From Acidobacteriota bacterium (GTDB taxonomy: Bacteria > Acidobacteriota > Vicinamibacteria > Vicinamibacterales > Vicinamibacteraceae): DNA of 64,000 bases. The DNA lies in NCBI GenBank assembly GCA_020845575.1, contig JADLFL010000024.1:1-64000 (forward strand), given 5' to 3'. Below, piece after piece: positions 3,121 through 28,261 of the stretch. The position numbers and the translations under genes were made by a program. Position 1 is the first letter of the stretch, and every line of letters starts with the position of its first letter. The notes under the pieces are model-generated. The model did not search any database. It was not told the DNA's origin and worked only from the letters and a program-made list of their open reading frames with translations.

Positions 3121-3146
3121 GGTGCGCCTGCAAGGATGCAACAGGG

Positions 3147-3168
3147 GGCCGGCAACCGGCAACCGGCC
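3147..3168. repeat. Dispersed heptad repeat (family A), short copy
   Basis: About three units related to CCGGCAA (reverse CCGGTTG) in the 137-bp gap between the zinc-ribbon gene and the PP2C gene. The same motif recurs near 11220, 12070, 16976, 30022, 34164, 41225 and inside pheS near 53700. Confidence 0.7.
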
Positions 3169-3257
3169 CGCCTTCGCCCGAGTGCGCGCTCCGCGCTTCG
3201 TCGGGGCTTCGGCGCCGCGGGCTATCATCGTCGGGTACCTTGCACCAAGGACGGCCG

Positions 3258-4175
3258 ATGGCTACGAGTCCTCATGAACATCGTCGTGGCGCGTACGCGG
3301 GTCGTGACCGCGACACGCTTGCGTTTGCGTCGGCGGTGACTGTCGACGCGTTCGGCATCTCGGATCCCGGGAACGTCCGGCCCGCCAACGAGGACCACTT
3401 CCTCATCGCGCGTGCGGGCCGGTACTACGAGACGGTGTCGACGAGCCTTCCCGAAGGCGAGCTTCCATCGCGCGCGTCGGACGATGGCTATGCGCTCGTG
3501 GTGGCCGACGGCATGGGTGGACACGTCGCGGGTGAAGTCGCCAGCCGCCTGACCATCAGGGAACTGGTGCGCCTGTCGCTCGAACTGCCAGACTGGATCT
3601 CGCGCGTTGACGAGGACACGATCGACGAGGTCGTGCGGCGATCGGAGACCCAGATGGCATCGGCGCATCAGCGCTTGATCGATGCGGGCAAGCGCGATCC
3701 CGACCTGCAGGGCATGGGCACTACCGTGACGGCCGTGCGCAACCTCGGTCGGCTGCTGCAGGTGGTCCACGTCGGCGACTCGCGGGCGTACCTGTTGCGC
3801 GGCGAGCAGCTCTCGCGCCTCACGCGCGATCACAGCCTGGTGCAGATGCTCGTCGACAGGGGTCGCATGACGCGCGAGGAGGCCGAGCAGTCGACGTCGC
3901 GGCACGTGCTCGTCAACGCCGTCGGCGGCGTCAACGACAGCGTGCGCGTGGACATCGATCACGTCGGACTCGCCAACGGCGATCGCCTGCTGCTCTGCAG
4001 CGACGGGCTGAACGACATGGTGGGTGACGAGGCGATTGGCACGGAACTGCTGTCGGCGGCCACGGCAGAAGCCGCCTGCCGTGCCCTCCTCCGGCGGGCC
4101 CTCGCCGCCGGCGGTCGCGACAACATCACCGTTGTCGCCGCGTTCTATTCGTGGGAGGGGAGTGCCAGGGGGTGA
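3258..4175 (+). CDS. PP2C-type Ser/Thr protein phosphatase
   Basis: 305 residues, soluble, cytoplasmic. It removes phosphate from Ser/Thr of proteins using two metal ions. Visible PP2C motifs in order: DPGNVRPANEDHF, VVADGMGGHVAGEVAS, GMGTTVTAV, HVGDSRAYLLR, LLLCSDGLNDMV and RDNITVVAAF. All metal-binding aspartates of these motifs are present, so it should be active. ATG 3258 follows AAGGA with 7 nt spacing; an in-frame TTG at 3240 is the alternative. No Ser/Thr kinase is in the window, so its partner is elsewhere. Confidence 0.9.
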   Translation: MATSPHEHRRGAYAGRDRDTLAFASAVTVDAFGISDPGNVRPANEDHFLIARAGRYYETVSTSLPEGELPSRASDDGYALVVADGMGGHVAGEVASRLTIRELVRLSLELPDWISRVDEDTIDEVVRRSETQMASAHQRLIDAGKRDPDLQGMGTTVTAVRNLGRLLQVVHVGDSRAYLLRGEQLSRLTRDHSLVQMLVDRGRMTREEAEQSTSRHVLVNAVGGVNDSVRVDIDHVGLANGDRLLLCSDGLNDMVGDEAIGTELLSAATAEAACRALLRRALAAGGRDNITVVAAFYSWEGSARG

Positions 4176-4286
4176 GACCCCTGGCGTCCACGCCTCACCT
4201 TCGGGCACCGGCCAACAGCGCGATGACGGGAGTCCCTCGTGGTCGCCCGGGCAACGTTCGCCTCCACGTCGTCGTACGGTGTGAGC

Positions 4287-5429
4287 ATGAACGATAACCA
4301 CGCGTCCGCCCCCTCCGGCCAGGCTTCCGCCGGCCGTCGCGCGTTTCTTCACGGTGCCGCCCTGACGGTGGGTGCCGGTCTGCTGCCCGGCGTTGGCGCG
4401 GCACCCGCCACGGCTGCCGCTGCCGGTGCCGACCTTCGTCCGCTGACCGAAGCGGAGAAGGCGCTGCGCCTCGCCTCCAACACCTATCCGCTCCGCACGT
4501 TGTTCAAGCGTCGCGCCGACGCGCCGACGATGGGTGGCCCGGGCGCGGCCGATGTTGCGGCGATGAAGAAGAAGTACGGCGAGATCACGATGCTGGACAT
4601 GCCCCAGTTCACCATCGACAACTTCCCGGGTGTGCGGAAGATGGATCTCTGGTCGTCGCTCTTCGGCGACGTGAACGACACCTCGATGTACAAGGCGTCG
4701 ACGGTCACGCGAGACGGTCAGTCGTTCACCACGTACGAGTTCGATCCGGCGACGGCTTCCGGCAAGCAGTGGCTGGACCGTCTGGCGGCGCAGCAGGCCA
4801 GGCTGGGTGTGAGTTGCCACCACGTCTCCAACAACGCGCCGCGCAACATGTGCGACCTGGACGCCAACCTGCGCCGCGAAGGCATCGCTGTCGCCAAGGT
4901 GTGGCTCGACGCGTGCAAGACCATCGGTGCCAGGACGATGCGCGTGAACACGGGCGGTCCCCGCATCGTCCCCGGCGCGTCGGCCACGGCGGGCTACCCA
5001 CGCAACGACGAGGTGGTCAAGTACATCGCCAACGCGGTGGAGTCGTTCAAGGAGATGGCCGACTACGGCGCCAAGGTCGGCGTGATCGTGACGATCGAGA
5101 ACCACTGGGGCCTCAGCGCGGATCCGACCAACGTCCGGATCATCCTCGACGAGGTCAACCACCCGTTCTGTGAAGCGTCTCCCGACTTCTGCAACTGGGA
5201 GCACGAGTACATGCTCTACCACGGCCTCGACGCCCTGATGCCGTACACCCACCACACGGTGCACGCCAAGTACTGGGACCGCTGGAAGGACGTCGACCTC
5301 CAGCGCTGCGTGCGCATCCTCAACAACCATGGCTTCAGGGGCGTGATCGCGCTCGAGTACGAGGCCGGCTCGTGGAACGGCGTCGAGGGTGCGCAGCACC
5401 TCATGAAGGAAGTGATGAAGGCCCTGTAA
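4287..5429 (+). CDS. Exported TIM-barrel protein, sugar phosphate isomerase/epimerase family
   Basis: 380 residues. A twin-arginine-type signal (GRRAFLHGAALTVGAGLLPG, about 12-31) precedes a xylose-isomerase-like TIM barrel. Typical metal-site stretches are visible: VTIENHWGLS, and a C-terminal GVIALEYEAGSW with the family's last glutamate. Exported members of this superfamily are common in organisms degrading modified sugars; the reaction here is not known. A TACGGT box ends 6 nt before ATG 4287, suggesting a leaderless message; the GTG at 4239 is therefore less likely. It precedes the RidA and PVC-type genes on the same strand. Confidence 0.8.
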   Translation: MNDNHASAPSGQASAGRRAFLHGAALTVGAGLLPGVGAAPATAAAAGADLRPLTEAEKALRLASNTYPLRTLFKRRADAPTMGGPGAADVAAMKKKYGEITMLDMPQFTIDNFPGVRKMDLWSSLFGDVNDTSMYKASTVTRDGQSFTTYEFDPATASGKQWLDRLAAQQARLGVSCHHVSNNAPRNMCDLDANLRREGIAVAKVWLDACKTIGARTMRVNTGGPRIVPGASATAGYPRNDEVVKYIANAVESFKEMADYGAKVGVIVTIENHWGLSADPTNVRIILDEVNHPFCEASPDFCNWEHEYMLYHGLDALMPYTHHTVHAKYWDRWKDVDLQRCVRILNNHGFRGVIALEYEAGSWNGVEGAQHLMKEVMKAL

Positions 5430-5458
5430 CCCCCGCGCGCGGTAGACTGCGGGCAGCC

Positions 5459-6691
5459 ATGCGCATGCCCGCAGCAGTCATGTTCACCACGAGCCTCCTG
5501 ACGGCCTGTTTCATCCTGGCTGTCGGCGAGGCTCGTGTCGTGTCGGCGCAGACACCAGCGGCCGATGATGGCGTACGCCTGCGCCGCATCGATGCCGGTT
5601 CCCGGACCGCGCCCGCGTCCGCCGTGGTCGTGGAGCGAGGCTCGCTCGTTCACACGGCCATGCTGTATCCCCTCGATCGTGACGGGCGAGTGCAGGGTGG
5701 CAATGACGTGCGCGCACAGGCCACGGCCGTCCTCGACCAGTTCGAGACAGCGCTGCGAGCCGCCGGCACGGGACTCGATCGCGTCGCACGCCTGCACGTG
5801 TACGTGGCCGACGCGGCTGCCGGCGCGGCTGTCGACGAGATGATTGCCCGGCGATTCGCCGCATCGTCGCGGCCCGCGCTGACGCGCGTCGAGTCGCGGA
5901 TGCGGCACGACGGTGTGCTCGTGGCGATGGACGCCATCGCAGCGACGGCGCGACATCCCGCGTCTGGACGACCTGAGCGGCTGCGTGTCGACGGTCTCCC
6001 ATCCACGGCTGGCGCGCACATCGCCATTCAGCCGGAGGGCCCTTTCGTCATCGTCTCCGGACGTGCGGCGCCCGGCGAGGGTGATGCCGCCGCCACGGGC
6101 ACGATGGCGCAGTTGAAAGGCGATCTCGAGACAGCAGGGCTCGGGTTCGCGGACGTCGTGCAGGTGAAAGCCTTCCTGACCGACATGTCGCGTGCGGCGC
6201 AGCTTGAAGCGGTGATGGCCGCGACGTTCACGGGCACGCCTCCGCCGATCGTCGTGACCGAATGGCGTGGCGGGTCCGCGGCAGTGGAGATCGAACTCGT
6301 GGCCGCGGCACCTGGCGCGCGTGGATCGGAGCGCGTGACGTTCGTCGAGCCGATCTCGGCGCGATACAGCCGCATCGCGCGCGTATTCGCGGGCAATCCC
6401 GTCTTCGTGTCGGGGCTCACGGGCGCCTCGCCGGATCCGAAGGAGCAGGTACGGGCGATCTTTGCCGAACTCGGTGGCGTGGTGTCTGCTGCCGGCAGCG
6501 ACATGCGGCACATCGCGAAAGCGACATATTACGTGTCTGACAAGGGCGCCGACGAGGAAATCAACGCGATCCGGCCGTCGATCTACGACGCAGCGCGTCC
6601 ACCGTCGGCGTCGAAGATCTCGGTGCAGGGCGTCGGGCGCACGGGCGCCGTCGTGACGATCGACGCGATCGCGGTGACTGTCGGCCGATGA
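5459..6691 (+). CDS. Exported protein with three tandem RidA (YjgF) domains
   Basis: 410 residues: a signal peptide (about 1-31, ending VVSAQ), then three RidA-like units at about 40-160, 180-285 and 300-408. Each has the fold's repeated landmarks, such as VVVERGSLVHTAMLYP, FVIVSGRAAPGEG and NPVFVSGLTGASPDPKEQ. Classical RidA is a single-domain trimer that deaminates reactive enamines; this chain looks like a covalent trimer. The substrate-binding arginine of RidA is not obvious in the third unit, so activity is uncertain. Its stop overlaps the next start as ATGA (6688-6691), so it is coupled to the haem dehydrogenase. Start: TAGACT box 10 nt upstream. Confidence 0.8.
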   Translation: MRMPAAVMFTTSLLTACFILAVGEARVVSAQTPAADDGVRLRRIDAGSRTAPASAVVVERGSLVHTAMLYPLDRDGRVQGGNDVRAQATAVLDQFETALRAAGTGLDRVARLHVYVADAAAGAAVDEMIARRFAASSRPALTRVESRMRHDGVLVAMDAIAATARHPASGRPERLRVDGLPSTAGAHIAIQPEGPFVIVSGRAAPGEGDAAATGTMAQLKGDLETAGLGFADVVQVKAFLTDMSRAAQLEAVMAATFTGTPPPIVVTEWRGGSAAVEIELVAAAPGARGSERVTFVEPISARYSRIARVFAGNPVFVSGLTGASPDPKEQVRAIFAELGGVVSAAGSDMRHIAKATYYVSDKGADEEINAIRPSIYDAARPPSASKISVQGVGRTGAVVTIDAIAVTVGR

Positions 6692-9063
6692 CACTCGCGC
6701 GCGGCGCTCTCGCCATCGTGGCGTCGATCACGCTCGGCATCGTGGCGGCTCCGATGGCGCAGGTGGGGGATCGGGCGGCGATCGACACGGCGCCTCCACC
6801 CGCGCACTGGCAGATTCCTCCGGCGCCTGTGCGCACGCCTGAAGCGTCGATGGCGCTCATGGAGTTGCAGCCGGGATTCAGGGTCGAGCTCGTCGCCGCA
6901 GAGCCGCTCGTTCAGGACCCCATCGCCTTCGCGTTCGACGAGCGCAACGCCCTGTGGGTACTGGAGTGGCCGTCGTACAACTGGCAACTGCACGGCGTGC
7001 TGCCGGGACTCGACGCCGCGCCGACGCCGAAGAGCCGCCTCGTCGTGCTTCGCGACACCGGCAACGATGGGCGCATGGACACGCGCACGGTCTTCGCGGA
7101 GATGGACTGGCCGCGCGGGATCCAGCTCGTCGACGGGGGCGTGCTGGTGTTCGCGTTGCCCGAGGTGGTCTTCCTGAAGGACACGGACGGCGACGACGAG
7201 GCGGACACGCGCGAGGTCGTCGCCAGTGGCCTGCCCATTCCCGTCAATCCGCACCTGGCGCCGAGCAGTCCGTCGTGGACGCTCGACAACTGGACGTACG
7301 CGCTTCAGGTCGACGATCGGTTACGAATCTCCCGCGGCGCGGGGCAACTCGCGCGTTCGGGCCGTCTCGCGGGGCAGTGGGGCATGTCGCACGACGATGT
7401 GGGCCGGCTGTTCTTCAGTTACAACCAGGACCACATCCGCGCGAGTCTCGTGCCCACGGCGTACGCCACGCGCAACCCGCACTACACGGCGACGGCCGGG
7501 ATCGACGTGCGCGTGGGCCTCGACAACGAGGTATGGCCACACGCCATCACGCCGGGCGTGAACCGGCGCGCGCAGCTGCGTGAGGATGGCCGGCTGCGCG
7601 TGTTCACGGCCAACGCCGCGCCCACGGTGTATCGGGGCGATCAGTTTCCCGACGACTGTCGTGGCAACGTGTTCGTTGGCGAATCGGCAGGCCGCCTGAT
7701 CCGTCGCTCCGTGCTCACCGAACGCGACGGCATCGTCACGGGGCGCAACGCCTACGCCGAGCGCGAGTTCCTCTTCTCGAACGACGAGCGGTTCAGGCCG
7801 GTGTTCACCGCGACGGGTCCTGACGGCGCGTTGTACGTGGCGGACATGTATCGCGGCGTGATCGAGGGGCACCTGTTCCTCACGACGTTCCTGCGCAATC
7901 AGATTCTCGCGCGCGATCTGCACAAGCCGTTCGGAGGGATGGGGCGGATCTACCGCATCGTGCACGAGGGGCGTCCGCTCGAGAGACCCGAGCGCGTGGC
8001 GCACGACGATCTCGACGGGTGGGTCCGGCTCCTCGCACATCCCAACGGCCACTGGCGCGACATGGCGCAGCGGCGGATCGTCGAATCGCGCGACATGCTG
8101 GCGTCGACTGACGCATCGCCGCACGAGCGCAATGTCGTGCGCGCGCTTCGTACGCTCGCGACGACGCATGCCGACGCACGCGTGCGCCTGCAGGCCGTAT
8201 GGACGCTCGACGGCATCGGTGCGGCCGACGACACGGTGATTCGCGCGGCACTCGCCGACGCGTCGCCCTTCGTGCGCATGGCGGCGCTGCGAGTGTCGGA
8301 ATCGCGACTGACCGATGTCTCGTTGCGGCGGGCTGTCCTCGTTCTGGTGGACGATACGGACGTCGCGGTGCGGCGTCAGGTGATGTACACGCTGGGCGCC
8401 ACGGCGGCAGGAGACGCAGAGGAGGCGCGCATCCGGCTGCTGCGGCGCGACATCGCCGTGCCCTTCGCGATCGACGCGTTCATGAGCGGGCTGTCGGGCC
8501 GCGAACTGATGACGCTGGAGACCATACTCGGATCTCCGTGGTGGACCGAGGATCGAGCGGAGCATCGCGCGCTCGTGACCGCGCTGGCCACGGCAGTGGC
8601 CAATGAAGGACGGCCGGAGGGACTGGCGATCCTGCGTCGTGCATCGAGCGCGTCAGCCGGTGCGCCGGCATGGCGGCAGTCGGCCATCCTCGATGGGATG
8701 GCGGCATCGAGCCGGACCACCACACCCACCGCGCCTTCGTCTGCCGTGGCCGGCGCGTCGGCTGCGGTCATCGAGCAGGGGCGCACGGCGTTCGCCGTGT
8801 GTGCGGCCTGTCATCAAGCCAATGGCAGGGGGCTGCCGTCGCTCGCGCCGCCTCTGGCAGGCTCGTCCATCGTGACGGGGCCGCCGGCGGCGTTGATCGA
8901 CGTCGTGCTCGGTGGACGCGACCTGGATCCCGCGTATCCGAGCATGCCGCCGCTGGCAGCACTGCCCGACGATCAGCTCGCGGCGATTCTCACGTACGTG
9001 CGTCAGGCATGGGGGACCGCGGCGTCGGGAGTGACACCCGACGAGGTGCGCACACGCAGATAG
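6688..9063 (+). CDS. PVC-type haem-binding dehydrogenase with HEAT repeats and C-terminal cytochrome c
   Basis: 791 residues. Signal peptide about 1-24; beta-propeller dehydrogenase domain of the kind first described in Planctomycetes (about 55-430; GFRVELVAAEPLVQDPIAF marks its start); HEAT-like helical repeats (about 450-650); then a class I cytochrome c domain. The haem motif CAACH is C705-H709 and the likely axial methionine is in YPSMPPLAALPDD. Such proteins are thought to oxidise sugars or alcohols in the periplasm and pass electrons to the respiratory chain. It is translationally coupled to the RidA gene. Substrate unknown. Confidence 0.88.
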   Translation: MTLARGALAIVASITLGIVAAPMAQVGDRAAIDTAPPPAHWQIPPAPVRTPEASMALMELQPGFRVELVAAEPLVQDPIAFAFDERNALWVLEWPSYNWQLHGVLPGLDAAPTPKSRLVVLRDTGNDGRMDTRTVFAEMDWPRGIQLVDGGVLVFALPEVVFLKDTDGDDEADTREVVASGLPIPVNPHLAPSSPSWTLDNWTYALQVDDRLRISRGAGQLARSGRLAGQWGMSHDDVGRLFFSYNQDHIRASLVPTAYATRNPHYTATAGIDVRVGLDNEVWPHAITPGVNRRAQLREDGRLRVFTANAAPTVYRGDQFPDDCRGNVFVGESAGRLIRRSVLTERDGIVTGRNAYAEREFLFSNDERFRPVFTATGPDGALYVADMYRGVIEGHLFLTTFLRNQILARDLHKPFGGMGRIYRIVHEGRPLERPERVAHDDLDGWVRLLAHPNGHWRDMAQRRIVESRDMLASTDASPHERNVVRALRTLATTHADARVRLQAVWTLDGIGAADDTVIRAALADASPFVRMAALRVSESRLTDVSLRRAVLVLVDDTDVAVRRQVMYTLGATAAGDAEEARIRLLRRDIAVPFAIDAFMSGLSGRELMTLETILGSPWWTEDRAEHRALVTALATAVANEGRPEGLAILRRASSASAGAPAWRQSAILDGMAASSRTTTPTAPSSAVAGASAAVIEQGRTAFAVCAACHQANGRGLPSLAPPLAGSSIVTGPPAALIDVVLGGRDLDPAYPSMPPLAALPDDQLAAILTYVRQAWGTAASGVTPDEVRTRR

Positions 9064-9369
9064 AAATGCCACGAGGCCGGGAATGTCGGGCATGCGTGCC
9101 ACGCCGGCGCCGGGCTCGGAGAGCCGGCCCTACTCACAGTGGCAACCAGGTAGGGCGAGCCCGACCCGCACAAGGCGGGTCTCCCCGATGCACATGATGG
9201 CGGGGCCCCGAGTGGCCTGTTCATGCGGCTCCTCTGCTGCAGTTCCACGTCGCGTGGAGAGACACGGAACGGCGTCGCGAGCGGCCTGCGCCGGACGATC
9301 GTTCCCGGTCATGGCCATCGGGACCTTGCGACGGTGCCGGTCTGTCGAAGATTGTGAGAGGTGCCAGCA
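9064..9369. repeat. Intergenic stretch with GC-rich inverted repeats (family B)
   Basis: No gene is visible. Positions 9112-9160 hold GGGCTCGGAGAGCCGGCCCTAC followed by a partly inverted partner (GTAGGGCGAGCCCGACCC), related to the family-B hairpins at 17891, 36605 and 61953. The right end carries the ribosome-binding site (GAGAGG) of the SulP gene. Confidence 0.6.
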
Positions 9370-11052
9370 ATGAAGATCCCCGCGTCATCCATCCCCTGGT
9401 CCACCTGGCGTCCCAAACTCGTCGAGATGCTGGCCGGCTACGACCGGCGCACGTTCTCCGCGGACGCGATCGCCGGCATCACCGTCGGCGTTGTCGCGCT
9501 ACCGCTCGCGATGGCGTTCGGCATTGCCTCCGGTGCCTCGCCGCAAGCCGGCATCTATACCGCCATCGTCGGCGGGCTGATCGTGTCGTTGCTGGGGGGA
9601 TCGAGTATCCAGGTGAGCGGCCCGACGGGCGCGTTCGTGGTCATCGTCAGCGGCATCATCGCCGCGCACGGCCTCTCCGGGCTGTTGATGGTGACGATGA
9701 TGGCGGGGGCGATCCTCGTGTTCCTGGCCGCAACGGGGCTCGGGCGCGCGGTGAAGTTCATTCCCAGACCCGTGGTGATCGGCTTCACGAACGGCATTGC
9801 GCTGCTCATCGCGTCGACGCAGGTCAAGGACTTCCTCGGGCTTGCCATTCCCGATCCGCCGAGCGAGTTCTTCGCGCGCATGGAAGCGCTCGTGGCAGGT
9901 CTGCCTGCGTGGAATCCGGCGGCGGTCGCGCTCGGCATGGTGTCGCTCGCGCTCGTGCTGCTCGTCCCGCGCTACTACCCGCGCGTACCAGGTTCCATCG
10001 TGGCGCTGGTGCTGGCCACCGTTGCCGTGTTCGTGTTCGATCTGCCCGTCGACACGATCGGATCGAAGTTCGGCGGGATTCCGAGCGGATTGCCGCACGT
10101 CGAGATGCCGGCGTTCCGCGCCGACCTGCTGTTGCCGCTGCTGCCGTCGGCGTTCACCGTCGCGCTACTCGCCGCCGTCGAAAGCCTGCTCTCGGCCGTC
10201 GTGGCCGATTCGATGACAGGCGACCGTCACAACTCGAGTGCGGAACTCATGGGGCAGGGCGTGGCCAACCTGGTGTCGCCGCTCGTTGGCGGCATTCCCG
10301 TGACGGGCGCGATCGCGCGCACGGCCACCAACTTCAAGTCAGGGGCGCGCACGCCGGTCTCGGGGATCGTGCACGCGCTCACGCTGCTGTTGATCATCCT
10401 GCTCCTCGCGCCGCTGGCCACGTACGTCCCGCTTGCCACGTTGGCAGCCGTGCTGTTCGTGGTGGCGTACAACATGGGCGAGTGGCCTGAGATTCCGGCG
10501 ATCCTGCGCCTCGACTGGGCCGAGATCTCCGTGTGGGCGCTGACCTTCGGGCTGACGGTGATGGCAGACCTGACGGTCGCCGTCGAAGTCGGCATGGCGC
10601 TGGCCGCCCTGCTCTACATCCATCGCGTGACGGATACGACAGTGGTCCTGCCCGTCACGCAGGACTACATCGACGATGGGCGGGTGCACACGCTGCAGGA
10701 CCACGACGTGCCGGATGACGTGGCGATTCTGCGCATCCAGGGGCCGTTCCTGTTCGGCATGACCGACAAGCTCGCCGACGCGACGGCAGACATCTCGGCG
10801 CTGCCGGCCATCGTCATCCTTCGCTTACGGAACATGACGGCCATCGATGCCACGGGGCTGCACGCGTTCGAACAGCTCAACGATCGCCTGCAGGCGTCGG
10901 GCCGGTCGCTGATCCTCTGCGGCGCCCGTCAGCAGCCCGCGGCCCTGCTGCACCAGGCCCGGTTCGTCAGGCACGTCGGCGCCGAGAACATCGTCCCCCA
11001 CATCACGGCAGCCCTGAAGCGCGCCGAAGCCCTCCGCACCACCGCGGTGTAA
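9370..11052 (+). CDS. SulP-family anion transporter with STAS domain
   Basis: 560 residues in the inner membrane. The first 430 or so form the SulP transport core with 12-14 hydrophobic segments; ADAIAGITVGVVALPLAMAF marks the first repeat. A cytoplasmic STAS domain fills about 435-555, with the DATGLHA motif at the site usually written DxSG. The family moves sulfate, bicarbonate or dicarboxylates by proton or sodium symport; specificity cannot be read from sequence. ATG 9370 has GAGAGG 8 nt upstream and is preferred over GTG 9361. No carbonic anhydrase or sulfur genes flank it. Confidence 0.9.
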   Translation: MKIPASSIPWSTWRPKLVEMLAGYDRRTFSADAIAGITVGVVALPLAMAFGIASGASPQAGIYTAIVGGLIVSLLGGSSIQVSGPTGAFVVIVSGIIAAHGLSGLLMVTMMAGAILVFLAATGLGRAVKFIPRPVVIGFTNGIALLIASTQVKDFLGLAIPDPPSEFFARMEALVAGLPAWNPAAVALGMVSLALVLLVPRYYPRVPGSIVALVLATVAVFVFDLPVDTIGSKFGGIPSGLPHVEMPAFRADLLLPLLPSAFTVALLAAVESLLSAVVADSMTGDRHNSSAELMGQGVANLVSPLVGGIPVTGAIARTATNFKSGARTPVSGIVHALTLLLIILLLAPLATYVPLATLAAVLFVVAYNMGEWPEIPAILRLDWAEISVWALTFGLTVMADLTVAVEVGMALAALLYIHRVTDTTVVLPVTQDYIDDGRVHTLQDHDVPDDVAILRIQGPFLFGMTDKLADATADISALPAIVILRLRNMTAIDATGLHAFEQLNDRLQASGRSLILCGARQQPAALLHQARFVRHVGAENIVPHITAALKRAEALRTTAV

Positions 11053-11249
11053 CGGGCGACCACAAGGGCCGCCCTTACGGGGTTTCAGGTGCGTCGATGT
11101 GTACGGACGACATTTCGCGGATCCGTTGTAGGGGCGACCCTTGTGGTCGCCCGTCGTGCGGCGACGTCTCGGGGATTCATCTGTAGGGGCGACGCATGCG
11201 TCGCCCCTACGTGCCGCCCGGTTGCCGGTTGCCCGTTGCCGATTGCCGG
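11053..11249. repeat. Clustered palindromic repeats (family C) and heptad repeats
   Basis: Between SulP and rpsD. Three related elements with the core GTAGGGGCGAC: a diverged one right after the SulP stop (11053-11081), one at 11126-11154, and a perfect 28-nt palindrome at 11183-11210 centred on GCATGC. A family-A heptad array (GTTGCCGGTTGCCCG type) follows at 11219-11249. These look like REP-type elements; no coding potential is seen. Confidence 0.75.
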
Positions 11250-11252
11250 CCG

Positions 11253-11298
11253 TGAAAATGACAACGCCCGCGTGCGCCGTGAGGCACCACGCGGGCGT
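11253..11298 (-). terminator. Rho-independent terminator of rpsD
   Basis: Read on the minus strand, an 11-bp stem ACGCCCGCGTG/CACGCGGGCGT with a 13-nt loop lies 22 nt after the rpsD stop and is followed by TGTCATTTTC. Confidence 0.75.
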
Positions 11299-11319
11299 CG
11301 TTCCGACTTCAGCCGTGCG

Positions 11320-11922
11320 TCAGGAGTAGAACTCGACGACCAGGCGCAGTTCGATGGGGAAGGGGATGGCCGTGTCGTCGGGCAGCGTCGACACGCGCGC
11401 CGAGAGGGCGGCGGCATCGACATCGAGCCAGTCCGGACGGCTGAGCGCCTGACCGGCCTGCTGCTGCAGTTCGACGGCCTTCTTGGCGCGCTCGCGGACC
11501 GAGACCACGTCGCCGCGCTTCAGGCGCACCGACGCGATGTCGACAGGGCGGCCGTTGACGAGCACGTGACCGTGGTTGACGAGCTGACGGGCCGCGGGAA
11601 TCGTGCGGGCGAAGCCGGCACGGAACACCACGTTGTCGAGGCGACGCTCGAGCAACTGGGCGATCATGGCGCCCGCGGGACCCTTCGAGCGGGCGGCCAC
11701 GGCGGCCACGGCGCGAAGCTGACGCTCACTGACGCCGTAGTGGTACCGCAGCTTCTGCTTCTCACGGAGACGCGTGCCGTAGAGCGAGATCTTCCGCTTC
11801 ATCCGCGGGCCGTGCTGGCCGGGGGGATGCGGGCGCTTGTCGATGCTCTTGGCCGACAGGCCGGGCAGGTTCATGCCAAGTGCGCGCATCACGCGCAACC
11901 GCGGACCTCTAAACCGTGACAT
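11320..11922 (-). CDS. rpsD: 30S ribosomal protein S4
   Basis: 200 residues. S4 nucleates 30S assembly by binding 16S rRNA. The N-terminus MSRFRGPRLRVMRALG lacks the zinc-binding cysteines of the C+ form, so this is the zinc-free type. The S4 RNA-binding domain begins at RRLDNVVFRAGFARTIPAAR and contains HGHVLVNGRPVDIASVRLK. ATG 11922 has GGAG 7 nt upstream; the longer open frame is not supported because it runs through intergenic repeats. The gene stands alone rather than in the alpha operon (no rpsM, rpsK or rpoA nearby). Confidence 0.95.
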   Translation of the reverse strand: MSRFRGPRLRVMRALGMNLPGLSAKSIDKRPHPPGQHGPRMKRKISLYGTRLREKQKLRYHYGVSERQLRAVAAVAARSKGPAGAMIAQLLERRLDNVVFRAGFARTIPAARQLVNHGHVLVNGRPVDIASVRLKRGDVVSVRERAKKAVELQQQAGQALSRPDWLDVDAAALSARVSTLPDDTAIPFPIELRLVVEFYS

Positions 11923-12205
11923 GTAGTCTCCGAAATGCTTCTGCTGTGCCAGTGGGGTCACGCGAACACTGTGGCTGCACTGGCCCCCGCGAGTGTGAGC
12001 TGGACTCACACGATCCGAGAGAGTGTAGCCCGGACGGAGGGTTCCGTCAATGTGAACGGGGAACTCCGCCGGCAACCGGCAATCGGCAACAGGCAACCGG
12101 TCGATCTTCGGGCGAACTCGGCTCCGTTCCCCCTCTTCGTTCTGCCCGGAAGGCCCTTCCGTCATTCGTCATCCGGCATTCGTCATTTCCCCGGGCAAGC
12201 TTTTC
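11923..12205. repeat. rpsD upstream region with heptad and pentad repeats
   Basis: 283 bp between rpsD and the RapA-like gene, whose 3' end faces it. It holds the rpsD leader, a family-A array at 12068-12100 (CCGGCAACCGGCAATCGGC type) and an ATTCGTCAT-rich direct repeat at 12162-12187. No gene is seen. Confidence 0.6.
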
Positions 12206-14674
12206 CTATCCCTGAACCACGATCGCCGCGACGGCGTGCGGGCGCCGTGGGCCCAGCGCCGCGGCCAGCCGGGGGACCAGGGCCGGCCAGTCGTGGCGCG
12301 CCTGATCGGCCGGCGACATGCCGGTCGTTATGCCGGTCAGTTGGGCTCCGGGCTCACGGATGGCCCGGGCCCACTCCGGACGGTCGCGCCCCTCGCTGTC
12401 GAGGGCCCGCACCTCCAGCGCCGGCCCATCCCGATAGATGGCGACCACGCCATGCCCCTGAGCGCCGGCCCGCCGGAGCGCGAGCCGGGCCACGCGTCCC
12501 TCCGGCGCTTCCTCGACGTGGGCGAGGAGCCCCTCCACCAGCGGGTGGCCCGACGCAAAGAAGTCGTGCGTCTCGTCCTCGACGGCGTACTCGCGATCGA
12601 ACGACCCGACGAACGAAGCGCCGGCAGACACGCCCGGCAGGCTGTCGACCAGCGCACCGCTGCCGAACTCGATCGCATGCGCGCGGCGGCCGCGCACCTC
12701 GTCGACGCGGAACCCGAGCCGCGCCGCCGTGTGCGTGATCACGCGCTCCATCGCATCGTCGAGGTCGGTCGGCACCTTCGCCAGAATCGACGGTCCGAGC
12801 GCCGCCCGATACGGATCGCGATGCAACTGTTGATAGGCCGCGTCGTGGATGCGCGCACGGGCGGCTCGTGCCTCCGCGAGGATCTCGTCAATCCGCGCAT
12901 CGGTCAGCGGCGACAGCGACGCATCGACGGCGATCGCGTCGAGCACGTGTTCGACAGATGCCAGTTGTGGCTCGAGGCCCGCAATCGGTTCGTGGAACAG
13001 GCCGATGCGCTCGAAGAGGCGCACCACGTCGGCACCGATGCCGCCAGACGGCCGGAAGTAGACGATCTCGACGGGGATGCGGCGGCCGATGCGATCGAGC
13101 CGCCCGATGCGCTGCTCGACGGCTGCCGGCTTCCACGGCATGTCGTACAACACGAGGCGGGTACAGAACTCGAAGTTGCGTCCCTCGCCGCCCGCTTCGG
13201 TGGACACGAGCAGGCTCGGTCCGTCCTCGGCGCGGAAGCGTGCGACTTCGGTGTCGCGTCGCGCGGCGGAGAGTTCCTCGTGGAAGACACCGGTGGCCAG
13301 CGCACCGCGTGCGCTGAGCGCCTCCCGCAGCATCTCCAGCGTGTCGCGATGCGCCACGAAGATCAGGGTCTTCTCGCCGGCCGCGCGCCACCGCGGTGCC
13401 CGCTCCAGCAGCCACGCGAGGCGCGGATCCGTGCGGTCCATCTCGTCGGCCTGCTGGCGCAACGCGTGTTCGTCGGGGGCCAGCACGGCCTTCAGCGCCG
13501 CACCTGACGCGAGTGCACGGCGCACGCGATCGACGGCTCGCTTGGCAACGAGTGGTGATGGCGGTGCGGGTGTCGTCGATGGGGACACGGGATCGGTGCC
13601 ACCGAAGCGACGCGCGTTCGCGACGGGCACTGTCGCGGCCTGCGCGATCACGGCGTCGGGCGTCGGTGCGATGTCGATGGGCCGTGGCTGGCGTGGCGGG
13701 AGTCCACCGATGTCGACGCGCCGTGTGGCGCTGGTACACGGCGGGAACGGCTCGCCCGATGCGAGCCGGGCCTCGACGTCCATGTCGGCCGGGAATTCCT
13801 CCGGCCGCAGCAGCTGCAGCAACCGGAAGAACCCGTGCGCATCGTCTTCGAGCGGTGTGGCGCTGAGCAGCACCACGTGCCGGCCGAGCGCGGCGATCGG
13901 GGCGACGGCGCGAAACGCCGGTCCGGCGGCGCGGCCCTGCGGCCATCGCAGCCGCTGCGCCTCGTCGACGACGAGCAGATCGATGCCCGCGTGGACGGCC
14001 TTCGACGTGAGATCGGGCCGTTCGATGAGCGTCTCGAGCGCGATCACCGCGCGGCGATGGACGTCGAAGGGATTGAACGACTCGCCGAAATCGCGTGCGA
14101 CGTCTGTCAGACGCGGGGCGTCGAGGAGCGTGAACACCTGGTGGTACTTGCGCCACAGCTCTCCGAGCCACTGGACGGTCAGCACGTCGGGTGCGACGAC
14201 GAGACACCGCTCGATGCGCTGCGTGTGCAGCAGCCGGTTCATGATGAGCGCGGCCTCGATCGTCTTGCCGAGGCCAACTTCGTCGGCCAGCAGCCAGCGG
14301 ACGGGTAAGGTTGCCGTTGCCCGCTCGGCGACGTGGAGTTGGTGCGGGAAGAGCCGCACGCGGCCGCCGAGCATCGAACCGAGCCCGCCTGCCTCTCGCG
14401 ACGCGAGCAGGCGCAGTGCGTCGAGCCGCGCCAGGAACGCCTCAGGGCTGTCGACGTCGCCGGCTGCCAGGCGCTCGAATAGTGGTCTGTCGCGGCGGTC
14501 CGGCGTGGCCGTCGTCGGCACGAGCGCATCGCTGCCGGCTGCCAGGCGCAGCGTGGTGTCCGTCGCCGGAAAGTGGACGACGAGCACGCGGCCCTCGACG
14601 GCCATCACCTGCCCGATGCCGAGTTCCTGATTGAAGCGATGGGTGAGCTGATCCCCTGTGGACCATGAGGACAC
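12206..14674 (-). CDS. SNF2/RapA-like DNA-dependent ATPase
   Basis: 822 residues (E. coli RapA has 968). RapA rescues stalled RNA polymerase using ATP-driven translocation. An N-terminal SH3-like region (about 1-55) resembles the RapA tudor part; Walker A is DEVGLGKTIEA at 131-141; the DEAQ box (LLVVDEAQRLRW) is near 236; the second RecA lobe contains VSTEAGGEGRNF and motif VI EQRIGRLDRIGR. The start is GTG 14674. It stands alone, transcribed away from the gasdermin locus. Being shorter than RapA, it could also be another bacterial SNF2 subfamily. Confidence 0.85.
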   Translation of the reverse strand: MSSWSTGDQLTHRFNQELGIGQVMAVEGRVLVVHFPATDTTLRLAAGSDALVPTTATPDRRDRPLFERLAAGDVDSPEAFLARLDALRLLASREAGGLGSMLGGRVRLFPHQLHVAERATATLPVRWLLADEVGLGKTIEAALIMNRLLHTQRIERCLVVAPDVLTVQWLGELWRKYHQVFTLLDAPRLTDVARDFGESFNPFDVHRRAVIALETLIERPDLTSKAVHAGIDLLVVDEAQRLRWPQGRAAGPAFRAVAPIAALGRHVVLLSATPLEDDAHGFFRLLQLLRPEEFPADMDVEARLASGEPFPPCTSATRRVDIGGLPPRQPRPIDIAPTPDAVIAQAATVPVANARRFGGTDPVSPSTTPAPPSPLVAKRAVDRVRRALASGAALKAVLAPDEHALRQQADEMDRTDPRLAWLLERAPRWRAAGEKTLIFVAHRDTLEMLREALSARGALATGVFHEELSAARRDTEVARFRAEDGPSLLVSTEAGGEGRNFEFCTRLVLYDMPWKPAAVEQRIGRLDRIGRRIPVEIVYFRPSGGIGADVVRLFERIGLFHEPIAGLEPQLASVEHVLDAIAVDASLSPLTDARIDEILAEARAARARIHDAAYQQLHRDPYRAALGPSILAKVPTDLDDAMERVITHTAARLGFRVDEVRGRRAHAIEFGSGALVDSLPGVSAGASFVGSFDREYAVEDETHDFFASGHPLVEGLLAHVEEAPEGRVARLALRRAGAQGHGVVAIYRDGPALEVRALDSEGRDRPEWARAIREPGAQLTGITTGMSPADQARHDWPALVPRLAAALGPRRPHAVAAIVVQG

Positions 14675-14697
14675 GGCGGAGATCGTGACACATGACG

Positions 14698-14703
14698 TAG
14701 GCT
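14698..14703 (+). promoter_or_regulatory. Candidate -10 box of a leaderless transcript
   Basis: TAGGCT ends exactly 6 nt before the GTG start at 14710, so transcription would begin at or next to the start codon. It would drive the small membrane protein and perhaps the gasdermin gene behind it. Confidence 0.5.
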
Positions 14704-14709
14704 CGTGGC

Positions 14710-15261
14710 GTGCCTCTGCTGATCGTGGTGCTCGTCGGCGTGCTGGTGGTGCTGCCTGTCGTGCTCGTGCCGTGGTCGATCCTGCAGCGCTATCGGGCCG
14801 GTGTGGCGCGGCGGCCGGCGCGCGGCTGGGTGGCGATGGTCAACGTCGTGGCCTTCGCGTTCTCGACGGGGATGGTGTTCGCGGGCGCGATGGTGTCGGA
14901 GTTCTGGGTGGCCGGAGCGCTTCGCGCGGCGCTCGTGGGATGGGTTCTCGGTGTGGCGCTGGGCGGCGTCGGGCTCGCGTTGAGCCGCTGGGAGCACGAC
15001 GGCGCGGGCTGGCACTTCACGCCGAATCGCTGGCTCGTCGCGCTGCTCGCGCTGGTCGTCGTGACACGGCTCGGATACGGCATCTGGCGTGCGTGGACGG
15101 CGTGGCGGACATGGGGCGTTGCCGACTGGGCCGCGCACGCGGGCATCGCCGGGTCCCTTGGCGCCGGCGCGTTGCTCATCGGATACGGCGTCGGGTTCTG
15201 GGCTGCCGTCCGCTGGCGCATCGGCCGCCGGCGGCGATGGCAGGCCACGTCTGTGCGCTGA
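14710..15261 (+). CDS. Small polytopic membrane protein (possibly DUF1453/CcdC-like)
   Basis: 183 residues with about five hydrophobic helices: 1-22, 43-62, 70-88, 107-125 and 148-170. The stretch WHFTPNRWLVALLALVVVTR resembles the DUF1453 (CcdC-like) family, but this is from memory of the pattern and not a search. The C-terminus is basic (RIGRRRRW). It lies on the same strand as the gasdermin gene, 55 bp upstream, with no clear promoter or terminator between, so co-transcription is plausible. Function unknown. Confidence 0.65.
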   Translation: MPLLIVVLVGVLVVLPVVLVPWSILQRYRAGVARRPARGWVAMVNVVAFAFSTGMVFAGAMVSEFWVAGALRAALVGWVLGVALGGVGLALSRWEHDGAGWHFTPNRWLVALLALVVVTRLGYGIWRAWTAWRTWGVADWAAHAGIAGSLGAGALLIGYGVGFWAAVRWRIGRRRRWQATSVR

Positions 15262-15316: not shown

Positions 15317-16129
15317 ATGTCCCGTCCCGATCAATCGATCACGTTCCTTCGGCAGTACGGCTACAGCGTGTTCCGGTATCCGCGTGCGAGCGCGCAGCCG
15401 CTGGAGGTCATGCACCGCGACGGCAAGGACCTGTCGCGTCTCGGCACCCTGCCGCAACTCATCTCCATCGGCGCCCAGCCCCTGCCCGCCATCGCACGCG
15501 ACGAAGCACCAGGTATCGACATCGACGGCACCGAGACGAGCAAGGTCAACGTCGCTATCGGCGTCAACATCCTCGGCGCCTTCATCGGCGCGCTCGGTGG
15601 GGGCAATCTCGGCCTCGCCGTCGGATTCAAGAAGGCCAGGACGGTGACCTTCAGGTACGCCGGCGTGATGGAAGACCGCGTGGACGTGCTGGCGCTCGAG
15701 AGCTGCATCAACGCCGGACAGGTCCTGGCGTCGCTCCCGCCTGGCACCATCGACAAGTTGATCGACGACGAGGTGTACGTGGTCACGTCGGTGCTGAAGA
15801 CGCGCAGCATCATCGTGAGCGCGCAGGGTGAAGCCGGCAACAGCGTCGAGCTGGACGTGCCGGTGATCAAGGGCACCGTTGGGGGCAGCGTGAAGACGGA
15901 GTTCGAAGGTGCCGTCAGCAGCAGCGTCAGGTTCGAGGGCGACGTGCCCGTGGCGTTCGGGCTGCAGGCGGTCCAACTGGTCTTCGACGATGCGCTGCGA
16001 CTGGCGACGACGAAGTCGCTGCCGCCGGGCGGCGCCGGGGCACGTACCGTGCGTCCCGGCGACATGCCGGGCGGCCGTCGTCCCGCGTATCTCGAGATGC
16101 GCGGCGCGTTCGTGCGTGTCGGTGAATAG
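15317..16129 (+). CDS. Bacterial gasdermin homologue (pore-forming, self-inhibited)
   Basis: 270 residues, close to the usual bGSDM length. Known bacterial gasdermins are kept inactive by a short C-terminal peptide; a protease removes it and the protein forms large membrane pores that kill the cell. Matches to the family pattern: FLRQYGYSVFRYPRASAQPL at the N-terminus (9-28), the glycine-rich membrane-inserting stretch 79-104 (VNILGAFIGALGGGNLGL), ARTVTFRYAGVMED (107-120), DDEVYVVTSVLKTR (150-163), and VAFGLQAVQLVFDD (212-225). Residues 235-270 form a proline/glycine linker and a tail with R254-R255, a possible cleavage point. No N-terminal cysteine for palmitoylation is seen. AGGAGG lies 7 nt before ATG 15317. 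No protease gene is adjacent. Assignment by pattern, not by search. Confidence 0.8.
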   Translation: MSRPDQSITFLRQYGYSVFRYPRASAQPLEVMHRDGKDLSRLGTLPQLISIGAQPLPAIARDEAPGIDIDGTETSKVNVAIGVNILGAFIGALGGGNLGLAVGFKKARTVTFRYAGVMEDRVDVLALESCINAGQVLASLPPGTIDKLIDDEVYVVTSVLKTRSIIVSAQGEAGNSVELDVPVIKGTVGGSVKTEFEGAVSSSVRFEGDVPVAFGLQAVQLVFDDALRLATTKSLPPGGAGARTVRPGDMPGGRRPAYLEMRGAFVRVGE

Positions 16130-24921: not shown

Positions 24922-25359
24922 TTACAGCGGCGTCTCGCGCCGCGGCTGCCAACTGGTGTTCTTCCCGCTCCCTGCTGTGTGCACGGGCCGTGCGGGCGTG
25001 CTGGCGATCGCTCCGATCAACTGCTCCGGATGGGACACGTCAAGGTCCTTCAGCGATGGACGCAGGCCCAGCGTCTCGAAGAGCGAGCGGATGTGCGGCC
25101 TGGGGTCATCCTTCCAGTCCCAGGCTTTCATCTCGTACTGCCTCGCGTGGGTCCAGCCTTTGAGCTGGGTCTCGCGAGTTTCGGCTCGGCGCAGCGTCGA
25201 ATGTTCTTCCGCGTAGACCATCTCGACGGGACGCCGGAGACGAGTCCATGTCGAACCATCACCTGTCTGGTGCCTGTCGAGACGGGCGGCGAGGTTCGTG
25301 GTGAAGCCGACGTAGAGGGAGTCGTCGGAGCAGCGGAGGATGTAGACGAAGAAGGGCAC
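24922..25359 (-). CDS. GIY-YIG domain protein, UPF0213-like
   Basis: 145 residues. The GIY-YIG nuclease fold occupies about 1-85: FVYILRCSDDSLYVGFTTNL gives the two motif strands, RLDRHQTGDGS the catalytic arginine region, and AETRETQLKGW the metal-binding glutamate. Proteins of this size are widespread single-domain GIY-YIG members with little known function. The C-terminal 50 residues are poorly conserved in appearance. The gene ends 100 bp short of the distal att repeat of the island, so it lies just outside it. GTG start. Confidence 0.8.
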   Translation of the reverse strand: MPFFVYILRCSDDSLYVGFTTNLAARLDRHQTGDGSTWTRLRRPVEMVYAEEHSTLRRAETRETQLKGWTHARQYEMKAWDWKDDPRPHIRSLFETLGLRPSLKDLDVSHPEQLIGAIASTPARPVHTAGSGKNTSWQPRRETPL

Positions 25360-25459
25360 ACCGCCGCGATTGCGAGATTGGCGCCATCGAGGTGAAGGCG
25401 TGAAATGCGCGATCGCACTCAGGCCAGGTGGTAACCGGAGTTGTCCTTCGACCGGTCAA

Positions 25460-25483
25460 TGGTGGAGGCGGCGGGAGTCGAAC
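25460..25483. repeat. Distal attachment-site copy (att)
   Basis: 24 bp identical to the last 24 nt of ssrA (T-arm and acceptor end plus CCA, reverse strand). The sequence diverges on both sides, so it is not a second tmRNA gene. Confidence 0.85.
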
Positions 25484-25627
25484 GCGACTTGGCGGGTTTT
25501 CATAAGTCTTTGATGGTGGCCGGCTTCTGGGCCAAGTCGCGTGAGGTCAGTAGGTTATCGACTGCTGCCGATTCCACTCGCATCCCCTCGATTCACCCGA
25601 TTTCGTCCGTGTTCCTGGAGAGATAGA

Positions 25628-25659
25628 GGAGGCGGCGGGACACCGTGCCCGCCGCCTCC
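25628..25659 (-). terminator. Perfect 12-bp hairpin after the toxin gene
   Basis: GGAGGCGGCGGG and its exact inverse CCCGCCGCCTCC with an 8-nt loop, 12 nt past the ParE stop. There is no T-tract, so termination is plausible but unproven. Its left arm matches the att core. Confidence 0.5.
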
Positions 25660-25671
25660 AACACGGCACGA

Positions 25672-26040
25672 TCAACCTTTCCGCTTCAGCCGTTCAACTT
25701 CGGCATGGAAGGCAGGGGGCAACTCGGCGATCAGCGTCTCGATGTCGCGCACCTGGTGCTGCACCGTCAGCACGACGATGCCCTGCGGCATGAGGTCGTA
25801 GATCACGAAGTGCTGCCGCGCAGGGATCATCAGGAAAGGAGCCGAGCGGTGCTGCCGAAGGCGCCCCTGGTCCGGGCTGACCGCTGCATCGCGCAACGCT
25901 GCGTACAGGTCGGCGAGGTAGCGGTCGGCCACGTCCTTGCCCCATTCACGGCGGGACCGCGCGTGGATGCGGCGCAGGTCGCGCGCCGCCGTGCGAGTCA
26001 GCAGGAAAGTCGCGGCCGGTGGCCCGTCATTTCCAGCCAT
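25672..26040 (-). CDS. parE: ParE/RelE-family toxin
   Basis: 122 residues. ParE toxins inhibit DNA gyrase and stabilise DNA segments; RelE relatives cut mRNA instead. The stretch LTRTAARDLRRIHARSRREW and the late FVIYDLMPQGIVVLTVQHQ followed by RDIE fit the ParE fold. The gene overlaps the antitoxin gene by 14 nt and lies after it, the usual antitoxin-toxin order. It sits within the ssrA island. The target cannot be decided from sequence. Confidence 0.82.
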   Translation of the reverse strand: MAGNDGPPAATFLLTRTAARDLRRIHARSRREWGKDVADRYLADLYAALRDAAVSPDQGRLRQHRSAPFLMIPARQHFVIYDLMPQGIVVLTVQHQVRDIETLIAELPPAFHAEVERLKRKG

Positions 26041-26296
26041 CGGCTTCCTTGCGGTCGAGCGTCTTCATATCAGTCTTGAAGTCGCCGCTCGACGCAAAGA
26101 CGCGGCCGGCCGCCACGTCGCGGTAGCCGCTCAGGATGGCGTCCTGCACGATCGCTCCCTCGCGCCGCTCCATGTCGCGGCGGATCAGATCACGCACGTA
26201 TTCGCTGGGAGTCTCATAGAGGCCATCTTCGCCGACCATCCGCTCGACGAACTCGGCCAAGGGCTGGGACAGGCGGGCGTTGATACGTTCGGACAT
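26027..26296 (-). CDS. parD: ParD-type ribbon-helix-helix antitoxin
   Basis: 89 residues. The N-terminus MSERINARLSQPLAEFVERM forms the DNA-binding ribbon-helix-helix, with ETPSEYVRDLIRRDMERR as the second helix; the C-terminal half should wrap the toxin. Such antitoxins repress their own promoter. ATG 26296 is preferred because GAAGG lies 5 nt upstream; an in-frame ATG at 26308 is possible. Coupled to the toxin gene by a 14-nt overlap. The promoter should lie in 26297-26415, where no other feature is seen. Confidence 0.82.
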   Translation of the reverse strand: MSERINARLSQPLAEFVERMVGEDGLYETPSEYVRDLIRRDMERREGAIVQDAILSGYRDVAAGRVFASSGDFKTDMKTLDRKEADGWK

Positions 26297-26415
26297 GGGA
26301 GCCTTCATTGTCGCACGAGATGGGCACAGCTGTCGCAACTATTGCCCATTGTTCCGCCAATAAGACCCCCTGCCGATCGTTGGAGGCCGTCCACCGCACT
26401 GGAATTCGTCCTCCA

Positions 26416-26925
26416 TCATTCGAGGCACCCCCTAATCGTCAGGGCGGTCTTCTTCAGCTCGGCCGAGTCGAGGCCCTTGCCGTCCTCCTCCGCTGACGTG
26501 AAGAGCGTCTTGCCCTCGGCGAACCCGTTCTTCCCGTACCAGGTTCGCTTCCACTCCCAGCCGCGCTTGTAGTTGGGGCGGCTGAGCATCCCGAGGTGTT
26601 CCCAAACCAGCAGGTCGCCATCGGCGGTGACGAACGAGAAGTCGGGGCGCAGACGGCCCGCCGCGATCGTCCCGTCCAGCACGCGCTCGTACTCGTAGGG
26701 GATGCCGAGCTGGAACAGCATGTTTGCGATCACCAGCTCCGACTTGCTGCGCACCAGATGGCCCTTCTCGGTGCGGTGGATCAGGTGCTCGGCGAAGGGC
26801 ACTGAGTCGTCGGCGGCGCGGATGACGCTCTGGAAGATGTTCGTGTTGCGGCGCGCGGTCTCCGAGCACTCCGGTCGGGTGAGGTCGAAGAGGCCCGTCG
26901 CGTCGTCGCCCTCGATGAGCAGCAC
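26416..26925 (-). pseudogene. C-terminal fragment of a helicase with nuclease-like domain
   Basis: About 169 residues are readable and the frame continues a short way upstream without a good start. The stretch HLVRSKSELVIANMLFQLGI, then DFSF and VWEHLGMLSRPNYKRGWEWK, resembles the PD-(D/E)xK-like C-terminal domain of certain UvrD-type helicases of mobile islands; the helicase motor is missing. Its 5' end stops where the opposite-strand integrase begins (26926-26946), so both genes were cut at one junction. Probably not functional. Family call from pattern memory. Confidence 0.6.
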
Positions 26926-26945
26926 GAGCTGCTCAGCCGAGCGGC

Positions 26946-27761
26946 GTGTCGTCGAAGGAAGTGGCGATTCGGGTGCATCTGTTTCCGCTCTTTGGAGACC
27001 GGCGCCTGGACACGATCACGACCGAAGACCTGCAGCACCTGAAGTCGGCGATGGTGGCCCGGTCACCGAAGACCGTCAACAACGTGTTGACGGCGCTGAG
27101 CGTGATGCTACGGACTGCCGTCGAATGGGACGTGATCGAACGCGTCCCCTGCACGATCAAGCTGCTGAAGACGCCGAAGGCGACGGCCGCGTTTCACGAC
27201 TTCGAGGCGTACGAGCGGCTGGTCGAAGCCGCGCGGAAGGACGACCTGGCGTACCTGATCGTGTTGCTGGGCGGCGAAGCGGGCCTCCGGTGCGGCGAGA
27301 TCATGGCGCTCGAGTGGTCCAACGTCGATCAGAAGAAGCGGCAGTTGTGCGCCGCCCAATCCGAATGGAAAGGGCACGTGACTGCGCCGAAGGGTGGACG
27401 GCTGCGATACGTGCCGTTGACTCGGCGACTGGCCGAGGCGCTGAACGGCGCGCGGCACCTGCGGAGCCAGCGGGTGCTGTGCGACCGGGACGGCAAGTCG
27501 GTCACGCAGAAGGTCGTCCAGGTGACCGTGCGGCGGGCTGCCAGGCGGGCGAACGTGAAGCCGGGGATTCACATCCTGCGACACACGTTCTGTTCGCACC
27601 TGGCGATGCGTGGGGCGCCGGCGAGGGCGATTCAGGAGCTCGCCGGACATCAGGACCTCTCGACCACGCAGCGCTACATGCACCTGAGCCCGGCTGCGAT
27701 CGACGCGACCATCAGGTTGCTGGAGACAGGAACGGAGGTGGCCGCCGCCGTGGAGAAATAG
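26946..27761 (+). CDS. Tyrosine recombinase (phage-type integrase), N-terminally truncated
   Basis: 271 residues against about 380-400 for intact island integrases. The core-binding domain begins midway (VHLFPLFGDRRLDTITTEDL) and the arm-binding N-terminus is absent. The catalytic domain is complete: Arg in GLRCGEIMALEW, Lys region TAPKGGRLRYVPL, HxxR in HILRHTFCSHLAM, His in AGHQDLSTTQ and nucleophile Tyr in QRYMHLSP. It lies next to ssrA, its presumed target, with its stop inside an 18-bp repeat. Loss of the N-terminal domain probably prevents normal excision. Confidence 0.85.
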   Translation: MSSKEVAIRVHLFPLFGDRRLDTITTEDLQHLKSAMVARSPKTVNNVLTALSVMLRTAVEWDVIERVPCTIKLLKTPKATAAFHDFEAYERLVEAARKDDLAYLIVLLGGEAGLRCGEIMALEWSNVDQKKRQLCAAQSEWKGHVTAPKGGRLRYVPLTRRLAEALNGARHLRSQRVLCDRDGKSVTQKVVQVTVRRAARRANVKPGIHILRHTFCSHLAMRGAPARAIQELAGHQDLSTTQRYMHLSPAAIDATIRLLETGTEVAAAVEK

Positions 27762-27875
27762 AGGAGGCGGCGGGAACGGGGCAGGTCAGAGGCTCAGTCG
27801 AAGCAAAGGTTGGCTTGCCAGCCGAAGCTCGCAAGTGACTGAGCAGGCCCACCTTCGCCGAAGGCTACGGTGGGC

Positions 27876-27904
27876 AACCTTCGCCTGAATCGCGAGCGAA
27901 GGTT
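27876..27904 (-). terminator. Hairpin directly after ssrA
   Basis: A 9-bp stem AACCTTCGC/GCGAAGGTT with an 11-nt loop starts at the last base of the encoded CCA. There is no T-run; it may end transcription or guide 3' processing. Confidence 0.35.
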
Positions 27905-27927
27905 GGTGGAGGCGGCGGGAGTCGAAC
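27904..27927. repeat. Proximal attachment-site copy within ssrA
   Basis: The 24-bp sequence shared with 25460-25483. It contains the T-arm 3' part, acceptor 3' strand and CCA of the tmRNA, so integration restores an intact tmRNA. Confidence 0.85.
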
Positions 27928-28261
27928 CCGCGTCCGAGGGCGCATCGCCGCAGAACTCTACGTGCGTGTCCGCTCTTGCAATCTCACCACCAGCCTCGAA
28001 GAGCGACGAGAAAAAGCTGGCAGCCAGTCCCGGTGGATCTCACCCCCGCTTGCCGGAACACCCGGCGGGGGCCAGCCCTCTGAATGGCGCGTCATCCCCG
28101 GTCGAGGGCGCTCTGGAGCGACGCGTCGCCGTCAATTAAGCGGCGAGTGCAAGCTGCGGTTCCGCAGTTACATTTGGTTTCCGAACGGTTTTACGAGGAA
28201 GCTCGGAGTCCTCGGCACGCATTCCACGGGTCCACACCTCCGTCGAAGCCGTGACGCCCCC
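27904..28261 (-). ncRNA. ssrA: tmRNA (transfer-messenger RNA)
   Basis: 358 nt. The 5' end GGGGGCGTCACGGCTTCGAC pairs with the 3' end CGCCTCC-A-CCA (7 bp, one G-U), and the T-arm GCGGGTTCGACTCCCGC is intact, with CCA encoded. With SmpB it releases stalled ribosomes and tags the nascent chain. The tag frame ends ...NVTAEPQLALAA, with the stop at 28138-28136; the exact resume codon is not fixed by sequence alone. A TTGACC-N17-TACACT promoter lies upstream at 28410-28438. The 3' end is the target of the adjacent island. Confidence 0.93.

Follow-up and report, generated by a model that had tools for sequence, protein, structure and literature searches.

The analyzed window, a stretch of 64,000 nucleotides from an acidobacterial genome assembly (referred to as G000), contains a stop-free open reading frame (ORF) of 270 amino acids (Table 1). 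An initial annotation, made from the sequence alone, had described its product as an orphan bacterial gasdermin (bGSDM) with a characteristic series of motifs. Translation of the window recovered this ORF with the motifs and the tail in place: FLRQYGYSVFRYPR at residues 10-23, the glycine-rich segment GAFIGALGGGNLGLAVG, ARTVTF at residues 107-112, and a Pro/Gly/Arg-rich linker that leads into the C-terminal tail. The gene starts with ATG, a Shine-Dalgarno-like AGGAGG lies just 5' of it, and the start residue is identical in the aligned homologues. It is the only bGSDM copy in the source assembly (4.57 Mb, 96% complete), and the relatives of this genome place it in the Acidobacteriota, the host phylum that had been proposed.

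Table 1 Features of the bGSDM gene and its surroundings, and of one protease gene encoded elsewhere in the genome. Positions refer to the window unless a locus is given.
Feature	Position	Strand	Basis or remark
Bacterial gasdermin (bGSDM), 270 aa, stop codon included	15317..16129	+	Translation, profile and structure-chain matches
N-terminus MSRPDQSIT, Arg3 at lipidated-Cys position	15317..15343	+	Alignments; Cys located by reference to 7n51 and 7n52
Pore-forming core, about residues 1-224	15317..15988	+	Extent of match to solved chains; boundary approximate
Linker, about residues 225-257, Pro/Gly/Arg-rich	15989..16087	+	Sequence and alignments
Candidate cleavage sites R243, R246, R254, R255	in linker 15989..16087	+	Sequence and alignments; putative cleavage
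Tail YLEMRGAFVRVGE, residues 258-270, presumed autoinhibitory	16088..16126	+	YL....F.R pattern; role presumed from described structures
Sulfate permease	upstream of bGSDM		
Ribosomal S4-type protein	upstream of bGSDM		
SNF2 helicase	12206-14674	-	Upstream of bGSDM
Membrane protein	14710-15261	+	No Pfam match; ends 55 bases before bGSDM
Outer-membrane barrel	downstream of bGSDM		
ATP-grasp-like ORF	downstream of bGSDM		By reading; no Pfam match
Response regulator	downstream of bGSDM		
DUF1697 protein	downstream of bGSDM		
Methyltransferase	downstream of bGSDM		
GIY-YIG protein	24922-25359		Probable integrated element
ParE-type toxin, with possible antitoxin ORF	25672-26040		Probable integrated element
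Phage-type integrase	26946-27761		Probable integrated element
tmRNA	27904-28261	-	Beside probable integrated element
Trypsin fused to nuclease-like domain	L064 (G000:C36:36000-50000), 5669-8506	-	Nuclease by reading

The claimed gasdermin identity was borne out by matches far above chance in profile and structure-chain searches. The PADLOC bGSDM profile matched residues 1-257 (E = 2.9e-67), and the NCBIfam model NF051890 (prok_gasdermin) scored 184.4 bits, its curated cut-off being 100 bits. Residues 5-225 matched the solved Vitiosangium bGSDM chains 7n51 and 8sl0 at E-values of about 1e-33 (7n51: 1.1e-33), and further matches were obtained to the bGSDM chains 7n52 (E = 7e-9), 9v2s, and 7n50. 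A search of Pfam-A returned nothing above threshold; its sole match, Bactofilin at 13.6 bits (threshold 27.9), would fit a different beta-rich protein, for example a bactofilin, but with two independent bGSDM models matched full-length and solved bGSDM chains matched in addition, this reading is already contradicted and its probability is negligible. Judged by these homologies, the ORF encodes a genuine bacterial gasdermin of a soil acidobacterium, related to the pore-forming proteins that bring about cell death in animals. AlphaFold2 models reached a mean pLDDT of 31 from the protein alone (single sequence) and of 33 when one relative was added (two sequences), values too low for these models to serve as evidence for the twisted antiparallel beta sheet of the family. 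When the latter model was compared by Foldseek, bGSDM chains ranked first (E = 1.8e-4) with TM-scores of ~0.2, the sequence contributing to the score, and this ranking counts as weak support. The assignment of a gasdermin fold rests on the homology to solved chains.

Neither a caspase-like, CHAT or trypsin-like protease gene nor a CARD or NLR-like ATPase gene was found beside the bGSDM by inspection of the neighboring ORFs and their Pfam matches. The locus contains no defense operon, and the orphan status suggested by the initial annotation holds. A wider defense island was rejected for want of a credible neighbor, and scans for promoters and terminators around the gene found nothing. The SNF2 helicase matches the BrxH, DpdE, and DrmD defense models via its helicase part but also has weak matches to RapA domains, and it is present in G125, G325, and G367 as well. 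A mobile element as carrier of the bGSDM was likewise rejected, as relatives turned up neither in plasmid or phage records nor on viral contigs.

The membrane protein gene immediately upstream is separated from the bGSDM by a short gap and lies on the same strand, and the two could form a two-gene membrane-lysis unit. However, DNA relatives of this gene in four other species of the genus (G325, G396, G367, and G125) are not located beside a bGSDM, two of these four species have no bGSDM at all, and the protein has no Pfam match. Such a partnership is therefore very unlikely, and with its relatives scattered in this manner the gene was rejected as a partner.

Two other features of the window may be mentioned. 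A short sequence at 12069-12105, some 35 bases long and possibly REP-like, is repeated in dozens of copies across the genome, and a probable integrated element is located beside the tmRNA gene at 24922-28261. Other PADLOC hits also fall within the window.

Gasdermins of this family are rare in the phylum, where carriers account for 4 of the 396 genomes sampled; in the class, 9 of 193 genomes are carriers. A contig scan with the 270-aa protein as sole query gave no match. Within the genus, the bGSDM is absent from two of five genomes, one of which is G125 (7.48 Mb). The complete 6.47-Mb genome of another species of the genus, G325, encodes an ortholog with 61% identity. This ortholog occupies a different locus, beside PP2C phosphatase and YeeE-like genes, where no protease gene adjoins it; a rhomboid-like gene is located about 1.3 kb away. 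The bGSDM of G396 (G396:C497, L010) is only 30% identical and is adjoined by a divergently transcribed gene for a CHAT / CHAT-NTPase-like protein. For both reasons it was rejected as an ortholog, and these differences imply that the family entered the genus on more than one occasion. A PP2C gene is located in the vicinity of the bGSDM both in G325 and in G396. It was dropped from consideration because the G000 bGSDM has none nearby.

The closest bGSDM found outside the genus (43% identity) is encoded by a Solibacteraceae MAG (L063, JALSRK010000046.1) and is directly followed by genes for a C14 caspase, a trypsin-hydrolase, and two NTPases. In G164, G359, G424, and G505, genes for CHAT, C25-like or trypsin proteins also lie beside or near the bGSDM, with weak matches in two cases (C25 in G164, CHAT in G359). 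Since the closest outside relative is protease-linked, the bGSDMs of G000 and G325 have most likely lost, or were separated from, their cassette. A second group lacking linkage comprises three species of one genus (G457, G459, and G460; L051, L052, and L050), which carry a bGSDM at the same locus with no protease of these kinds; by reading, the gene is inserted between a molybdopterin-type oxidoreductase with its anchor and a pair of Nramp- and MgtE-like genes. The bGSDM of G494 is situated at a contig end, which leaves its protease linkage unjudgeable. On L048 (119-1626), its neighbor is a protein of 199 aa that matches no Pfam family and bears an AHELGH motif resembling those of metalloproteases. 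In a tree of 12 sequences, G000 grouped with G325 (83/99) and G494 with the G457-G460 set (83/83). As the deeper forks are open, the tree suggests, but does not prove, that linkage was lost twice independently.

Alignments of these relatives also clarified the layout of the protein. The position of the palmitoylated cysteine, which is Cys4 in 7n51 and Cys3 in 7n52 and was located through the G424 homologue, is occupied by Arg3 in G000, G325, and L063 and by Asn in G494. This does not disqualify the protein as a bGSDM, because the N-terminal cysteine is kept in most members of the family only (PMC9079055). If L063 represents the nearest outside lineage, the cysteine would have been lost earlier than the linkage. 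The only cysteine of the 270-aa protein, C129, is missing from the G325 ortholog.

The region that follows the core is about 45 residues long and contains no large C-terminal domain. Linker and tail are kept in G000, G325, and L063, and the tail pattern YL....F.R is common to these three and G494 in a 12-row alignment. An autoinhibitory role of this tail is presumed from bGSDM structures as described (PMC10989679). In characterized bGSDMs, cleavage follows a Leu or Arg located some 20 residues before the C-terminus (PMC9612521), and the linker contains several arginines. In the 12-row alignment, R243, an Arg after Ala, is aligned with the AAR of G325, L063, and G494, whereas R246 is paired instead in a pairwise alignment; hence, the position of the linker arginine is uncertain.

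Comparison of the G000 and G325 genes by Nei-Gojobori counting over 268 codons yielded a dN of 0.31 and a dS of 0.80, the latter being rough at such divergence, and a dN/dS of about 0.4. Conservation was lowest at third codon positions (54% identity), and the protein diverged most in its last 90 residues. We conclude that the bGSDM is kept under purifying selection, which is more relaxed in linker and tail. The relaxed tail, the linkage lost relative to L063, and the missing gene in part of the genus could also be expected of a relic, that is, a decaying effector of a lost defense cassette that is now functionless. This is quite improbable given that the ORF is intact and preceded by a Shine-Dalgarno-like motif, that the G325 ortholog is intact as well, and that the dN/dS ratio stays this low across a deep divergence.

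Proteases that might activate the protein are encoded elsewhere in the G000 genome, where five CHAT matches, one C14 match, and six Trypsin_2 matches were detected. Among these, two loci are conspicuous. A cluster beside purK/purE on G000:C17 (L055, G000:C17:30000-46000; 2779-15222) encodes a subtilase, a CHAT protein, an 1888-aa protein with no Pfam match, a C14 caspase, and a trypsin, and is conserved in the genus, being also present in G125 and G325. On G000:C36, a 636-aa trypsin fused to a nuclease-like domain (Table 1) shares 35% identity with the L063 trypsin across 272 residues, and its counterparts in G325 and G125 show about 67-71% identity. The fusion of a trypsin with a putative DNA/RNA non-specific endonuclease recalls the nuclease-protease pairs of antiviral systems. 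Because G125 lacks a bGSDM and nevertheless carries relatives of both the C17 cluster and the C36 trypsin-nuclease, there is no specific co-occurrence and these proteases are candidates only.

The reading that we favor, and regard as fairly probable, is that the protein is a cell-killing pore-former kept inactive by its short C-terminal tail. The linker would be cut in trans by a protease whose gene lies at another place in the genome, the tail would depart, and the core of about 225 residues would oligomerize into large pores in the inner membrane that kill the cell, probably as abortive infection. This sequence of tail removal and pore formation is drawn from homology. It is consistent with the bGSDM family matches, with a linker and tail kept in the orphans and in L063, with purifying selection, and with the presence of proteases encoded elsewhere in the genome. 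The orphan context is found in two species at two unrelated loci, and L063 is protease-linked, which also speaks for this mechanism. Against it stand the occurrence of the candidate proteases in the bGSDM-less G125, the low conservation of the last 90 residues between the orthologs, the ambiguous alignment of the linker arginine, and structure models with pLDDT values of 31 and 33.

The same lack of a linked protease in two species and at two loci may instead be the true state of the system, with the bGSDM activated independently of cleavage, for example by redox state or partner binding. The second protease-free lineage (G457/G459/G460) with its conserved locus would agree with this, and cleavage-independent activation has been reported for atypical, including some ancient, eukaryotic gasdermins (PMC13305819). 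We consider it unlikely, since the linker and tail of the protease-linked L063 are retained, the disulfide-release precedent needs cysteines and C129 is the only one available, and no bacterial precedent was found in the literature searched.

The usual view of bGSDMs is that they belong to operons which also encode a protease of their own. Copies with no linked protease were reportedly already known as a minority when the family was described in 2022. Hence, the protein is a new member of the family, and its points of interest are the loss of the cysteine and the conserved orphan loci. Copies that are under selection and have no linked protease offer a clean test of activation by an unlinked protease versus activation without cleavage, and the two related species, the protease-linked L063, and the replacement of Cys by Arg together form a natural series in which activation and lipidation can be compared. 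More speculatively, and with a probability that we rate as low, selection may maintain stand-alone chromosomal bGSDMs in at least two acidobacterial genera, where a shared cellular protease would activate them or activation would be free of cleavage, perhaps for a programmed lysis other than phage defense, with the G000 clade doing so without an N-terminal lipid.

Among characterized systems, the Vitiosangium bGSDM (7n51, 8sl0; pore 9a84) is the best solved relative. With 266 residues, 7n51 is similar in length to the 270-aa protein, which implies a similarly short tail, but it has Cys4 where Arg3 is found here, and its tail sequence was unmatched by phmmer. The Runella zeae bGSDM (7n52) belongs to the same family and provides the activation model, its C-terminal loop being cut after Leu247 (PMC9079055); it has Cys3 and an adjoining caspase-like protease gene, whereas the G000 protein has Arg3 and no adjoining protease. 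The gasdermin/CARD-NLR operon of Lysobacter enzymogenes is anti-phage, with a bGSDM effector and trypsin-like proteases (PMC9079055; PMC13236601), and its CARD, NLR-like ATPase, and protease have no counterparts at the G000 locus. In the L063 cassette, the bGSDM is accompanied by the C14 caspase, trypsin-hydrolase, and two NTPases, none of which lies beside the G000 gene, yet the two gasdermins are 43% identical over their whole length and share the MSRPDQSIT start, Arg3, and the tail pattern.
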